Shown: in pieces, positions 6,908 to 56,317 of the stretch
How the letters are laid out: every line of letters begins with the position of its first letter
Position numbering within the stretch: the first letter of the stretch is position 1
NCBI GenBank assembly: GCA_003331425.1
Contig: QOOS01000003.1
Coordinates: forward strand, 1-64,000
Reading direction: 5' to 3'
Origin: Candidatus Nitrosopumilus sp.
GTDB taxonomy: Archaea > Thermoproteota > Nitrososphaeria > Nitrososphaerales > Nitrosopumilaceae
Length of the DNA: 64,000 nucleotides
Notes under the pieces: generated by a model
What the model was told of the DNA's origin: nothing
The model's input: only the letters and a program-made list of their open reading frames with translations
The model's database searches: none
Program-made: the position numbers and the translations under genes

Positions 6908-7026
6908 AATGAATATTCAATCTTATTCTAGAGAATTAGAATGAAAATCAAATATACTTTCATACAATTAACCTTAAGAAAACTCGTAAAATAATTAATA
7001 AGTAATTTTGAAAAATCATTACAAAT

Positions 7027-7941
7027 ATGTTAAAAAATACATTTACAGCAGGACCAAAGTGTCCAGCTTGTACAAACACCAAAATCGTTACAGATCACGA
7101 TACAGGGGAATTATTTTGCGCTAATTGTGGATTAGTAATTACAGATAAAGTAACAGACACCAATGCCGAATGGAGATCATTTTCCAAAGATGGAGGAGCA
7201 GATCCAACACGAACTGGTGCACCAACATCATTGACAATGCACGACAGAGGATTATCAACAATAATTGGTGCAGTAAACAAAGATGCATCTGGAAAACCAT
7301 TATCAACTTCAATGAAAAGTTCTATTGAACGTCTTAGAACATGGGATAGCAGAAGTCAAGCACACACATCTTCAGATAGAAATCTCAGACAAGCACTAAA
7401 TGAAATGAGTAAATTAAAAGACAAATTGGCTTTAACTGAAACAGTAATTGAGAAAGCATCTTATATTTACAGAAAAGCATTAGAGAAAAAATTAGTTAGA
7501 GGTAGATCAATTCAAGGATTAGTTGCAGCATGTCTATATGCAGCATGTAGAAACACAGAAACCCCAAGAACATTACAAGATATTGCAGATGGAATGAATA
7601 TTAGAAAAAAAGACATTGCACGTTGTTACAGATTAATTTTTAGAGAATTAGAATTAAAAATGCCAGTGGTTGATCCAGTTAAAGGAGTATCAAGAATTGC
7701 CAGTGTTGCAGATTTAAGTGAAAAAAGTAAAAGAAAAGCAGTAGAAATTCTCACTCAAGCAAAGGATACAGGTTTAGTTGCAGGAAAAGATCCAATGGGA
7801 ATTGCAGCAGCTTCATTATATTTAGCATGTATCAGTACAGGTGAAATAAAATCTCAAAAAGAAATATCAGAAGCATCAGGAATCACAGAAGTCACTATTA
7901 GAAACAGATGCGTAGGTTTGAGAAAAATGCTCAAAAATTAA
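7027..7941 (+). CDS. tfb: transcription initiation factor IIB (TFB)
   Basis: N-terminal CPAC...CANCG zinc ribbon, 'EWRSF', two cyclin-like repeats. Confidence 0.96.
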   Translation: MLKNTFTAGPKCPACTNTKIVTDHDTGELFCANCGLVITDKVTDTNAEWRSFSKDGGADPTRTGAPTSLTMHDRGLSTIIGAVNKDASGKPLSTSMKSSIERLRTWDSRSQAHTSSDRNLRQALNEMSKLKDKLALTETVIEKASYIYRKALEKKLVRGRSIQGLVAACLYAACRNTETPRTLQDIADGMNIRKKDIARCYRLIFRELELKMPVVDPVKGVSRIASVADLSEKSKRKAVEILTQAKDTGLVAGKDPMGIAAASLYLACISTGEIKSQKEISEASGITEVTIRNRCVGLRKMLKN

Positions 7942-51646: not shown

Positions 51647-52486
51647 TTGATAAAATTAAACAAGAATTTATCTAGTAAACTGACAGAATCTATAATATTG
51701 AAAGAAAAATTTGCAGATATTGATGGAAGTAAAATTCGTTATTTGGAATCAGGTTCTTCTGAAAAAACACTTGTGCTAGTACATGGGTTAGGTGCATCTT
51801 GTGAAAGATGGGAACATGTACTCCCCATTTTTAAAAATAATTTTAGAGTTATAGTTCCAGATTTAATTGGATTTGGTCAAAGTGACAAACCAACTGTAGA
51901 TTATACAATAGATTTTTTTTCAGAATTTTTGGAAAAATTTTTGAAGTCTTTAGGAGTTGATAAAACTAGCATAATAGGTTCATCACTAGGTGGACAGATT
52001 GCTGCAGAATTTGCCTCAGTACACCCCAATATTATTGAAAAATTAATCCTAGTTTCCCCTTCAGGAATTATGAAACAATCTACTTTTGCTCTTGATGCAT
52101 ATATTATGGCAGCACTATATCCAAATGAATTAAGTGCAAAAAATGCATTTGAAACAATGGATGCCTCAGGAAAAGAAATTCCAAAAACAACAATTACGAA
52201 ATTTGTAACACGAATGAAATTACATAATGCAAAATTTGCGTTTATGTCAACTTTATTAGGATTAAAAAATTCTGAATCAATTATTAATAAACTCAAGAAT
52301 ATTACTTCCCCAACATTGATAGTTTGGGGAGCAGATGATCCAGTAATTCCCATTAAATTTGCTAATGATTTTGTGACACATATTGATAATTCTGAATTAT
52401 ATGAAATGAGTAATTGTGGACATACCCCATATGTCCAAAAACCAGAACTATTTGCTTCTCAAGTATTAAAATTCTTGAATAATTAA
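51647..52486 (+). CDS. alpha/beta hydrolase (TTG start)
   Basis: 'LVLVHGLGASCERWEHVLPIFKNNFRVIVPDLIGFGQSDKP', 'IIGSSLGGQIAAEFAS', 'VIPIKFANDF'. Confidence 0.92.
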   Translation: MIKLNKNLSSKLTESIILKEKFADIDGSKIRYLESGSSEKTLVLVHGLGASCERWEHVLPIFKNNFRVIVPDLIGFGQSDKPTVDYTIDFFSEFLEKFLKSLGVDKTSIIGSSLGGQIAAEFASVHPNIIEKLILVSPSGIMKQSTFALDAYIMAALYPNELSAKNAFETMDASGKEIPKTTITKFVTRMKLHNAKFAFMSTLLGLKNSESIINKLKNITSPTLIVWGADDPVIPIKFANDFVTHIDNSELYEMSNCGHTPYVQKPELFASQVLKFLNN

Positions 52487-52523
52487 CAAAAGGATTTAAA
52501 TTAGAATTATTGTATTTTTGGTT

Positions 52524-52949
52524 ATGAGTGGTAATAGTAACCAATATGATCCAACTGCAATGTTTAAAGATTGGATTCAAAAAAGTGGTCAAGCTCAAGC
52601 TGAATTTATGAAAAACTTTGGATCATTAATGACAAATCAACCTAATCAAAAATTTAATCCATTAGAAACATTAAAAGAAGTTTCAGATAAAACTACACAA
52701 ACTCAATCAAACATGATGGATAACATGTCAGCAATGCAAACAAAAAGCATGGACACCATGTTTAGTATCGGACAGATGCTTCCATCTTTTATGAATTGGG
52801 GAGCTTATAAAACCACCATTAGCAGTAATGGCAGAATTTCAATTCCAGAAGCTGAACGAAATGCTTTAGATTTGGGTGAAGGAGATTTGGTTCAAGTCAT
52901 AATATTACCAATTACAAAAAAAACAAAAACTAAGAAAAGTAAAAAATAA
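52524..52949 (+). CDS. phasin-like N-terminus fused to C-terminal AbrB/SpoVT-type domain (ATG at 52524 preferred to TTG at 52518)
   Basis: Gln/Met-rich helical N-terminus; 'YKTTISSNGRISIPEAERNALDLGEGDLVQVIILPI' AbrB signature. Confidence 0.78.
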   Translation: MSGNSNQYDPTAMFKDWIQKSGQAQAEFMKNFGSLMTNQPNQKFNPLETLKEVSDKTTQTQSNMMDNMSAMQTKSMDTMFSIGQMLPSFMNWGAYKTTISSNGRISIPEAERNALDLGEGDLVQVIILPITKKTKTKKSKK

Positions 52950-53136
52950 TTCAAAGTAAAACAACTCAGAAAAAATCCATAGATATTTTTTCCAAAGTAT
53001 AAAAAAACATCAATAAAATATTGATGGAATTAAATAAAAAAATGATTTTAGATCATCACATTCATGTTGAACGCACATCTATTTTTGAAAACGTTCATTT
53101 TTTACTAAAAAATTCAGTATGTAATTAAAGGATTTA

Positions 53137-53163
53137 ATTACCATTCATTACCAATTATTACCA
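53137..53163 (+). promoter_or_regulatory. three direct repeats ATTACCA with exact 10-bp period
   Basis: 53137-53143, 53147-53153, 53157-53163. Confidence 0.8.
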
Positions 53164-53167
53164 ATAC

Positions 53168-53175
53168 TATATATA
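53168..53175 (+). promoter_or_regulatory. TATA box of the phasin-like gene
   Basis: TATATATA about 25-30 bp upstream of the ATG at 53198. Confidence 0.65.
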
Positions 53176-53197
53176 CTGGTTCATTAATCTAAAATTT

Positions 53198-53635
53198 ATG
53201 AGTACACAAACAAAAACAACTCAAAATACAAATCAGTCAAACAATGTATTTGCAATCTACAAACAAAATGTGCAAAAATATTTTGAAAGTATCACAAAAA
53301 ATACTCCTCAATATTTTCAAGCAACAACACATTTTCAAGAAGAATGTATGAAATCTGCTCAAAAATCATTTGATGCTGCAATCACAATACAACAAGAATT
53401 TGCACAAAAATCAGGATTATCCACAGATATTCCAACTGCTGCAAAAAATGCAATTGTTGATTCCAACAAACAAATCATCCAAGCAAGTACGATTCAAAAT
53501 CAAATTGCAAAAACTGTAATTGATGCAACAACTGAAAATATGAAATCCTTTAATGACAATGTTGAGGCATTCACTGATTTGAATAAAAACATCATCCAAT
53601 CATGGATGACAACATTCACTCCTACAAATAACTAG
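53198..53635 (+). CDS. phasin-like PHA granule protein
   Basis: all-helical, 'YKQNVQKYFESITKNTPQYFQATTHFQEECMKSAQKSFDAAITIQQEF' and genomic context. Confidence 0.7.
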   Translation: MSTQTKTTQNTNQSNNVFAIYKQNVQKYFESITKNTPQYFQATTHFQEECMKSAQKSFDAAITIQQEFAQKSGLSTDIPTAAKNAIVDSNKQIIQASTIQNQIAKTVIDATTENMKSFNDNVEAFTDLNKNIIQSWMTTFTPTNN

Positions 53636-53694: not shown

Positions 53695-54759
53695 TTATGA
53701 TCTTTCAGATAACCATGTGCCCATTTCAGGCAATACTTTTTTTTGAGATAAAGAGCTAGCAATCATTCCCACATGTCCTGTAGGATATATTTTCAAAATT
53801 TTATCTTTGCTGCCAACGGCATAATGTAATGGCATACTGCATTCAGGAGATACCAAATGGTCTCCTACTGCTACTTGTGTAAACATAGGCATATCAATTT
53901 TCTTTAAATTAATGAGTTCATCACCTACATGCATTTTATTTTGAATGAGAAGGTTTTTTTGATAAATATCTTTTATCCACTGTTTGAATAATTCGCCAGG
54001 TATTGGAGGGGTGTCACCTAACCATTTTTCAACTCTCAAAAAATTATCAACATATTTTTTATCATCAATATTTTTGAAAAATTTAATGTATTTTTCAATG
54101 CCTTGCTCAAATGGCTTTAGAACTGAAAAACAATAATACATGAATTCAGGAGGCATATTTCCAATAATATCAACCATTTTGTCGGCATCCATGTGTTTTG
54201 CTAAATTACTAATTACAGTAGTATCCTTCCAGCCATCAATTACAGGAGCAGTTGCAACATAATTTTTTACATTTTCTGGGTGTAAAGCAGTGTATGCAGT
54301 AGCAATTGTTGCGCCGGTACAGTATCCTTGCAATGAAATTTTTTCTACAGATGTCTGATTTTTTATATATTCTACTGAATTATCCAAGTAGCCATTGACA
54401 TAATCATCAAAATCCAAATATTTATCCATACTAGTTGGAGTTCCCCAATCTAACATGTAAACATCAAATCCTTGTTCTAAGAGATTTTTTACCCAACTTT
54501 TTTGAGGATGAATATCCAAAATATGATATCGATTAATTAGCGCATATGATATTAACAAAGGTGTTTTGTATTTTGTTTCAACAAGAGGTGTGTAATGTAA
54601 CAATCGTGTTTTATCAATTTCTTGTACTACCTTATGAGGAGTTACTTCCAGATTTATTTCATCAGGAGCAGAAATTAATTTTGGAGCATCAATAACATTT
54701 TTACTAAATTTTAGAACTTCTTCAATTATTTTTGGATCAATTCTAGACTCACTTTGCAT
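53695..54759 (-). CDS. phaC: poly(3-hydroxyalkanoate) synthase, class III-like PhaC
   Basis: lipase-like box GYCTG with catalytic Cys; 'FDVYMLDWGTPTSMDKYLDFDDYVNGYLDNSVEYI'. Confidence 0.93.
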   Translation of the reverse strand: MQSESRIDPKIIEEVLKFSKNVIDAPKLISAPDEINLEVTPHKVVQEIDKTRLLHYTPLVETKYKTPLLISYALINRYHILDIHPQKSWVKNLLEQGFDVYMLDWGTPTSMDKYLDFDDYVNGYLDNSVEYIKNQTSVEKISLQGYCTGATIATAYTALHPENVKNYVATAPVIDGWKDTTVISNLAKHMDADKMVDIIGNMPPEFMYYCFSVLKPFEQGIEKYIKFFKNIDDKKYVDNFLRVEKWLGDTPPIPGELFKQWIKDIYQKNLLIQNKMHVGDELINLKKIDMPMFTQVAVGDHLVSPECSMPLHYAVGSKDKILKIYPTGHVGMIASSLSQKKVLPEMGTWLSERS

Positions 54760-55345
54760 TTTTTCTTTTCTCCTTCTTTAATTCTAATTCCAATTTAGAT
54801 ACACGTTTTTTTAATGAGTGAATTTCTTTATACACCTCATCAATTTCCTCTTTACTAGGTAGATTCACAGATTGTAAAATTACATTTGTGATATTATTCC
54901 AGTGTTTTGTTAATTCTAATTCTTTTGATACCAAATTTCCATAATTATCTCCAAATTTTTCAGAATCAAATAATTCAGTAAAATCATTATCAAAAATGTC
55001 AATCCAAATTCTTTTTACTGCCTCTATTTGTTCAACATCTTGAGGAATTTCTGGAACTTTTTGGTTTACTTTTTTTTGAGCAATTCCCCAGACAGAAGAT
55101 AATTGTTTATAATATTCAGTCATGTATTTGTTAAATTCAAATAATTTTTCATTAATCTCAATTAATTCAACAGATATTTTTTTTGAATTTGCAGCAAATG
55201 CCCTCATAGGTCCAATTGAAGTTAAAGCTTGAGGTTTACTAGACATCAAATGAATGATATCAGTCCAAAATAACGACAAATGCTTGTAATAATCAGCAGT
55301 CTCCACAGGGGATGTATTGAGGATTTCAGATGATTTTGAAGTCAC
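54749..55345 (-). CDS. phaE: PhaE-like PHA synthase subunit
   Basis: overlaps phaC start; helical, C-terminal coiled coil 'HSLKKRVSKLELELKKEKRK'. Confidence 0.75.
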   Translation of the reverse strand: MTSKSSEILNTSPVETADYYKHLSLFWTDIIHLMSSKPQALTSIGPMRAFAANSKKISVELIEINEKLFEFNKYMTEYYKQLSSVWGIAQKKVNQKVPEIPQDVEQIEAVKRIWIDIFDNDFTELFDSEKFGDNYGNLVSKELELTKHWNNITNVILQSVNLPSKEEIDEVYKEIHSLKKRVSKLELELKKEKRKNAK

Positions 55346-55397: not shown

Positions 55398-55790
55398 GTG
55401 GATAATGTAGAAGAACTTGAAAGGATTTGTCAAGATATTTTAAAATTACATCCTAAAATGCGGTCAGCTAGATTCATCAATGCTAGAGGGCATTTAGTAG
55501 CTGGAGGAATGAAAGAAGGATTACTATCGCTAGAAGCAAAAAAACAAGATGAAATGATGTTCATGGAACTTGCGTTACGAGTTAGAATGCGACATGAATT
55601 TGATAATGAGTTTGGAGTAGTTCATTTTTCATTATCATATAGAGATAAAGTGATTGTAATGAGTTTTCCATTAAGTGATGATGACGTACTATTAGTATCA
55701 CGTGAAAAAGATAAGAATTTTGAAGATATTCCATTCAAAATATTAGAATTGATTGAAGATATCAAAATGACTCCAATCAAAACATTTTGA
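55398..55790 (+). CDS. roadblock-like small protein (DUF6659-like)
   Basis: 'RFINARGHLVAGGMKEGLLSLE...YRDKVIVMSFPL' similar to 9421 ORF. Confidence 0.65.
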   Translation: MDNVEELERICQDILKLHPKMRSARFINARGHLVAGGMKEGLLSLEAKKQDEMMFMELALRVRMRHEFDNEFGVVHFSLSYRDKVIVMSFPLSDDDVLLVSREKDKNFEDIPFKILELIEDIKMTPIKTF

Positions 55791-55903: not shown

Positions 55904-56317
55904 ATGTCAGCCAATTCAAAAAATAATGAATGGGATTCATTGTGGGGAGAATATTCAAAATCTCTCGAAAATTGGAAAGCAATGTTTGAACAATTCCAAA
56001 ATGCAAGCAATGAAATGCAAACAAAATTCAATCAAGTTTGGGAAAAAGCAGGTGCAGAGTCTAGCACTAAAACCATGAAAGATTTTACAGAAAAATGGCA
56101 AAAATCCATGAGTGATGCAGGAATAACATCATTCAAAGAATTTACAGAAAATTGGCAAAAATCTATCAGTGATGCAAATGCTTCAGCCTTTAAACAGTTT
56201 GCAGATAATTGGCAAAAAGATCTCAGCTCTTCAGGAATGGAACAAATGAATGCATACGGAGAAATGATGAAAAAATTTGCCGATACTTGGAATTCAATGT
56301 GGCCAAAATCCACATGA
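55904..56317 (+). CDS. phasin-like protein with internal repeats
   Basis: repeated '(F)TEKWQKSMSDAGITSFKEFTENWQKSISDANASAFKQFADNWQKDLS'. Confidence 0.7.
   Translation: MSANSKNNEWDSLWGEYSKSLENWKAMFEQFQNASNEMQTKFNQVWEKAGAESSTKTMKDFTEKWQKSMSDAGITSFKEFTENWQKSISDANASAFKQFADNWQKDLSSSGMEQMNAYGEMMKKFADTWNSMWPKST

Follow-up and report, generated by a model that had tools for sequence, protein, structure and literature searches.

A putative PhaR-type AbrB regulator and candidate phased operators in the PHA gene cluster of a Candidatus Nitrosopumilus genome

Bacterial PhaR of Cupriavidus and Paracoccus is a PHA-binding repressor of phaP that is released by the polymer. With the archaeal gene described here it shares a presumed logic only; the parallel is a functional one between separate protein families, and the models of bacterial PHB/PHA accumulation regulators in Pfam and NCBIfam gave no match to the archaeal product at E values up to 1. 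Among the archaea, Nitrosopumilus maritimus reportedly stores PHA. In a 2024 study of storage in this species, the PHA genes listed are those for PhaE, PhaC and degradation, with no regulator or phasin named (PMC11082331). The closest described system is that of the haloarchaea, where PhaR of Haloferax mediterranei goes back to Cai et al. 2015 (as cited in PMC9049629 and PMC11205408). According to PMC9049629, PMC11205408 and PMC10948481, haloarchaeal PhaR is granule-associated and carries a C-terminal AbrB-like domain that is critical for repression. In the same papers, its target is the phaRP promoter, which contains four tandem repeats, and phaP overlaps phaR by 8 bp. Bacillus AbrB is a global regulator in which the DNA-binding domain is N-terminal (PMC11135676). 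Its consensus is TGGNA-N5-TGGNA (PMC11497800), and a bipartite TGGNA is also given in PMC11135676.

The gene considered here, which we call phaR, lies in the window, that is, the whole 64-kb stretch of a Candidatus Nitrosopumilus genome that was analysed (Table 1). A preliminary description, made from the letters alone, read the last ~45 amino acids of the product as an AbrB/SpoVT pattern. This reading was borne out: the peptide that it quoted is present, and in an NCBIfam profile search residues 96-126 match TIGR01439 (lp_hng_hel_AbrB) at 5e-7, which passes the curated cut-off. The Pfam model PF04014 (MazE_antitoxin) matches more weakly, at 4e-4, and stays under its cut-off. Only two AbrB matches in the entire genome pass the cut-off, and the phaR product is the better-scoring one. 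In a profile search against solved structures it finds 2glw at 9e-9, and SpoVT and archaeal AbrB proteins much more weakly (E 0.2-0.6). The gene is present in 39 of 61 related genomes, nearly all congeners among them, with its start codon kept. Almost every congener keeps both the reading frame and the start codon, at identities of 64-94%, so that neither the gene nor its AbrB domain can be put down to chance.

Table 1. Positions of the phaR gene, its neighbours and the candidate regulatory sites in the window
Feature	Position	Strand	Remarks
Alpha/beta hydrolase, upstream of phaR	51647..52486	+	PF00561 3e-34; intracellular PHA depolymerase model 3e-35, under cut-off
TATA-like box of phaR, TTTAAATTA	52495..52503	+	~29 nt before ATG; conserved across 29 congeners
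Candidate PhaR operator over phaR start	52519..52543	.	TGGTT, TGGTA, AACCA, 10-bp spacing
phaR	52524..52949	+	141-aa AbrB-type regulator, haloarchaeal PhaR ortholog by reciprocal best hits; ATG start
N-terminal helical unit 1	52536..52631	+	residues ~5-36; hhalign 94% vs N-terminus of other AOA PhaR
N-terminal helical unit 2	52644..52793	+	residues ~41-90; hhalign 90% vs that segment in other AOA PhaR; probably a duplicate of unit 1
AbrB looped-hinge-helix DNA-binding domain	52809..52901	+	residues 96-126 of 141; TIGR01439 5e-7
Candidate PhaR operator of phaP	53139..53163	.	TACCA x3 at 53139, 53149, 53159; kept in sister genome G006
TATA-like box of phaP, CTATATATAC	53167..53176	+	assigned by its place ~31 nt ahead of the ATG
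phaP, putative phasin, presumed PhaR target	53198..53635	+	Phasin_2 0.009, weak, under cut-off
phaC, class III PHA synthase subunit PhaC	53695..54759	-	TIGR01836 8e-122, passes cut-off
phaE, class III PHA synthase subunit PhaE	54749..55345	-	PF09712 5e-12, passes cut-off

The resemblance to the haloarchaeal system goes beyond the domain. In a plasmid collection, the two best matches to phaR are AbrB genes within maoC-phaR-phaP-phaE-phaC clusters of Haladaptatus and Haloferax. When Haloferax PhaR was used as the query, phaR was the top match in the window genome at 7.6e-12, the next match being at 0.34, and the window protein as the query found PhaR as the sole match in the genomes of Haloferax and Natrinema (5e-11 to 3e-13). 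Judged by these reciprocal best hits, phaR is the ortholog in archaeal ammonia oxidizers (AOA) of haloarchaeal PhaR. The alignment across the two phyla has 18 invariant columns, and the C-terminal AbrB-like domains have the motif K-x2-[VI]-x-S-x-GRISIP-x2-ER in common. In both groups the gene stands beside phaP and phaE/phaC. Here phaR is flanked by an alpha/beta hydrolase gene and by the gene with the weak Phasin_2 match, and phaC and phaE lie on the opposite strand, which is a difference from the haloarchaeal arrangement. The hydrolase gene is kept upstream of phaR in congeners; its product is possibly a PHA depolymerase or a thioesterase, and its true start is probably downstream of the listed TTG. 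The overlap of phaR and phaP also has its counterpart in most congeners, where phaP starts inside the phaR stop codon (ATGA/TTGA, an overlap of 4 nt). In the window genome, and likewise in its sister G006, a gap of 248-250 nt separates the two genes instead (52950-53197 in the window), and phaP has a TATA box of its own.

The link to PHA synthase was followed through 151 genomes of the order, of which 86 gave strong PhaR matches and 88 a class III PhaC that passes the cut-off. PhaC is present in all 86 of the genomes with PhaR, two genomes have PhaC alone, and 63 have neither gene. These genomes are mutually related, so that a Fisher value for the association of PhaR and PhaC overstates its significance, and the telling point is that there are zero genomes with PhaR only. 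The two genes are at most 10 kb apart in 71 of the 86 genomes and at most 2 kb apart in 66. Genomes G069 and G070 carry class III PhaC above cut-off, and PhaR was not detected in them.

The N-terminal part of the protein is rich in helix and in Gln and Met. The preliminary description likened its ~90 amino acids to the phasins encoded nearby and took the gene for a fusion of a phasin segment with an AbrB domain. Phasins are likewise helical, Gln-rich and encoded beside PHA synthase, so the likeness in composition stands, but no relation in sequence was found. The phasin models of Pfam and NCBIfam, Phasin_2 (PF09361) among them, gave no match to the N-terminal ~90 amino acids, and hhalign probabilities against the adjacent phasin family and haloarchaeal PhaP were ≤2%, so that literal phasin homology is not supported; of the two domains proposed, profile searching recovered the AbrB one. 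Very weak Pfam matches of both the phaP product and the PhaR N-terminus to unrelated helical families were taken as chance helix matches. The N-terminus does match its counterparts in PhaR proteins of other AOA, which tells against a literal fusion. Two units can be delimited, with raw hhalign scores of 34.9 and 32.8 against PhaR N-termini of other AOA families, where shuffled columns reach maxima of 13.4 and 18.2. Because both units match one same segment elsewhere and also match each other weakly (P 4e-4), the N-terminus of the Nitrosopumilus-type PhaR suggests an internal duplication. The AOA protein is longer than the haloarchaeal one, and the probable duplication of the helical unit is a further difference between them. 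Pairwise alignments with haloarchaeal PhaR extend from unit 2 into the AbrB domain; for the N-terminus the match is weak, with an hhalign probability of 38% by way of other AOA N-termini and of 2-6% directly. An AlphaFold model places helices at residues 10-37 and 46-72, followed by a beta-alpha element at 98-114, and is of low confidence (mean pLDDT 53, pTM 0.24; the alignment is shallow and the protein is expected to be an intertwined dimer).

The promoters of phaR and phaP contain a common pattern. TGGT and ACCA were counted as one half-site in two orientations, which gives 488 half-sites in the 64-kb window. Just two triples among them are spaced by 10 bp, one over the phaR start and one in the phaP promoter. 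No triples were found in the window at other spacings from 6 to 30 bp, and in 300 simulated windows the mean number of 10-bp triples was 0.02 and the maximum 1. At phaR the units are TGGTT at -5, TGGTA at +6 and AACCA at +16, downstream of the TATA-like box. As this box lies ~29 nt before the ATG, the sequence suggests that the phaR transcript is leaderless. At phaP the TACCA triple sits a few bases upstream of the TATA-like box, and the promoter at 53137-53175, singled out in the preliminary description, does contain these three phased candidate sites. Units of TGGTA/TACCA 10 bp apart correspond to the AbrB consensus TGGNA-N5-TGGNA, so that the half-site consensus as well as the DNA-binding fold is shared with Bacillus AbrB/SpoVT. 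Two things are different from Bacillus AbrB, namely that the domain is C-terminal in PhaR and that exact paired sites in intergenic DNA were found at the phaP promoter alone. A wider PhaR regulon was considered and rejected, as genome-wide pattern searches showed no enrichment of the exact pair (5 matches, control 7); beyond the phaP promoter there are 3 matches, all of them within genes. Within the cluster, no phased sites were found upstream of the alpha/beta hydrolase gene, at phaE or at the gene starting at 55904. In the window genome and G006, phased sites accompany the new, separate phaP promoter.

The pattern at phaR is also found in related genomes. In 29 congeners the units at -5, +6 and +16 are kept, mostly exactly and in some cases with one mismatch, the -5 unit alternating between TGGTA and TACCW. 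Their phaR starts contain 17 exact 10-bp pairs, where shuffled sequences average 0.03. All 29 congeners use GGT at codon 3, as against 47% of other Gly codons, and all 29 use AAC at codon 6, as against 24% of other Asn codons. Such a bias is the expectation if the coding sequence doubles as a DNA site, the sequences of the congeners being related rather than independent. The motif was first seen in the window and its congeners, and loci fetched later therefore form an independent test. Among these, exact phased pairs or triples occur at the phaR start in 8 of 8 Nitrosopumilaceae loci. Two further AOA families have phased sites at pha promoters as well: in G038 pairs lie on both sides of the TATA box of phaR; in G037 phaP comes ahead of phaR, and the pairs flank the TATA box of phaP. 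Across 18 haloarchaeal phaR promoters, the half-site distances peak at 10 bp, with 16 pairs where shuffling gives 0.13 on average, and at 20 bp, with 11. Both groups have a tandem-repeat promoter with TGGTA/TACCA phased by 10 bp, but the haloarchaeal sites are just upstream of TATA, whereas the AOA candidate operator at phaR lies over the start codon. A separate phaP promoter with a candidate operator of its own is a further feature by which the window species and its sister differ from the haloarchaea. In ten Nitrososphaeraceae loci (L095-L104) no phased TGGTA sites were found at phaR, though the gene is conserved. The operator code is therefore not universal, and on present sequences a PhaR operator in that family, if there is one, must differ.

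A mechanism can be proposed along the following lines. A PhaR dimer would bind TGGTA/TACCA half-sites through its C-terminal AbrB domain, the 10-bp spacing being about one helical turn. Binding over the phaR start and beside the phaP TATA box (52519-52543 and 53139-53163) would block transcription of both genes. The helical N-terminus would associate with PHA granules or with their coat, so that PhaR would be pulled from the DNA as granules form, and phasin would then be made and cover the new surface. Since the granule surface would compete for PhaR by way of these N-terminal helices, the output of phasin would be proportional to that surface. By analogy with the haloarchaeal system and with AbrB proteins, it is quite likely that PhaR represses phaR and phaP. 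That it senses granules directly, on the same analogy, is a reading towards which we lean slightly.

It is also possible, though rather unlikely, that PhaR binds DNA and represses its own gene and phaP but does not sense granules. Its N-terminal helices would then only build a higher oligomer over several operator units, and the signal would be a metabolite or another protein. Operators with three or four phased units would suit such an oligomer, as would an N-terminus that is unlike phasins, but the occurrence of PhaR is strictly tied to PHA synthase, and in PMC11205408 haloarchaeal PhaR is described as granule-associated. Very improbable is a protein whose main task is to tether granules to the nucleoid so that they are shared out between daughter cells, regulation being a minor role. 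One chain here does combine helices with a DNA-binding domain, and bacteria have nucleoid-associated phasins, PhaF for example, going by a citation in PMC9049629; specific phased sites at two promoters alone nevertheless favour regulation, as does the haloarchaeal ortholog, which is a repressor according to PMC9049629. An unrelated AbrB/MazE-type protein, for instance an antitoxin that is beside the PHA genes by chance, was suggested by the sub-threshold PF04014 match and is rejected as highly implausible in view of the orthology to PhaR, the 86/86 co-occurrence with PhaC and a neighbourhood that contains no toxin gene.

The idea of a single chain with an AbrB regulator of PHA genes and a helical part, as put forward in the preliminary description, is supported by the PhaR orthology and by the TGGTA units phased at both phaR and phaP; its literal phasin fusion falls away. 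The combination of both roles in one polypeptide is not new, since haloarchaeal PhaR is already so described in PMC9049629, PMC11205408 and PMC10948481. The extension of PhaR to AOA appears to be new; a literature search, which most subscription papers fell outside, found nothing that links AbrB with Nitrosopumilus, and an earlier annotation is possible. Also new are the candidate operator code shared with the haloarchaea, its placement over what is probably a leaderless start codon, and the probable duplication in the N-terminus. They may be read as one operator code, with TGGTA half-sites every 10 bp in any orientation, which two archaeal phyla share and which reached them along with the class III PHA genes, by descent or by transfer. 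In the marine AOA this code would span the start codon of a leaderless transcript, the coding sequence serving at the same time as operator, and the N-terminal duplication would provide two granule-contacting helices per chain. This combined reading is tentative, and we place it a little below even. An operator common to two archaeal phyla suggests a regulatory unit that is ancient or has been transferred. With a likely regulator, a partner phasin and an exact, mutable candidate operator named, the switching of carbon storage in these abundant ammonia oxidizers becomes directly testable.

Several features in the surroundings of these genes may also be mentioned. Before the alpha/beta hydrolase gene, many congeners (L001-L030) have a conserved TGATCGC...AAAACTTATCTAGTGA block that resembles the promoter element of another regulator. 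Near phaE, the window encodes a second helical protein (55904-56317, + strand) with internal TEKWQKSMSDAG-like repeats, which is possibly a granule protein and whose promoter is without phased TGGTA. A DUF6659 protein (55398-55790, + strand; 4e-18) diverges from phaE, and in locus L032 a small protein resembling it (7014-7376) is found beside phaP, which suggests a conserved partner of the PHA cluster.
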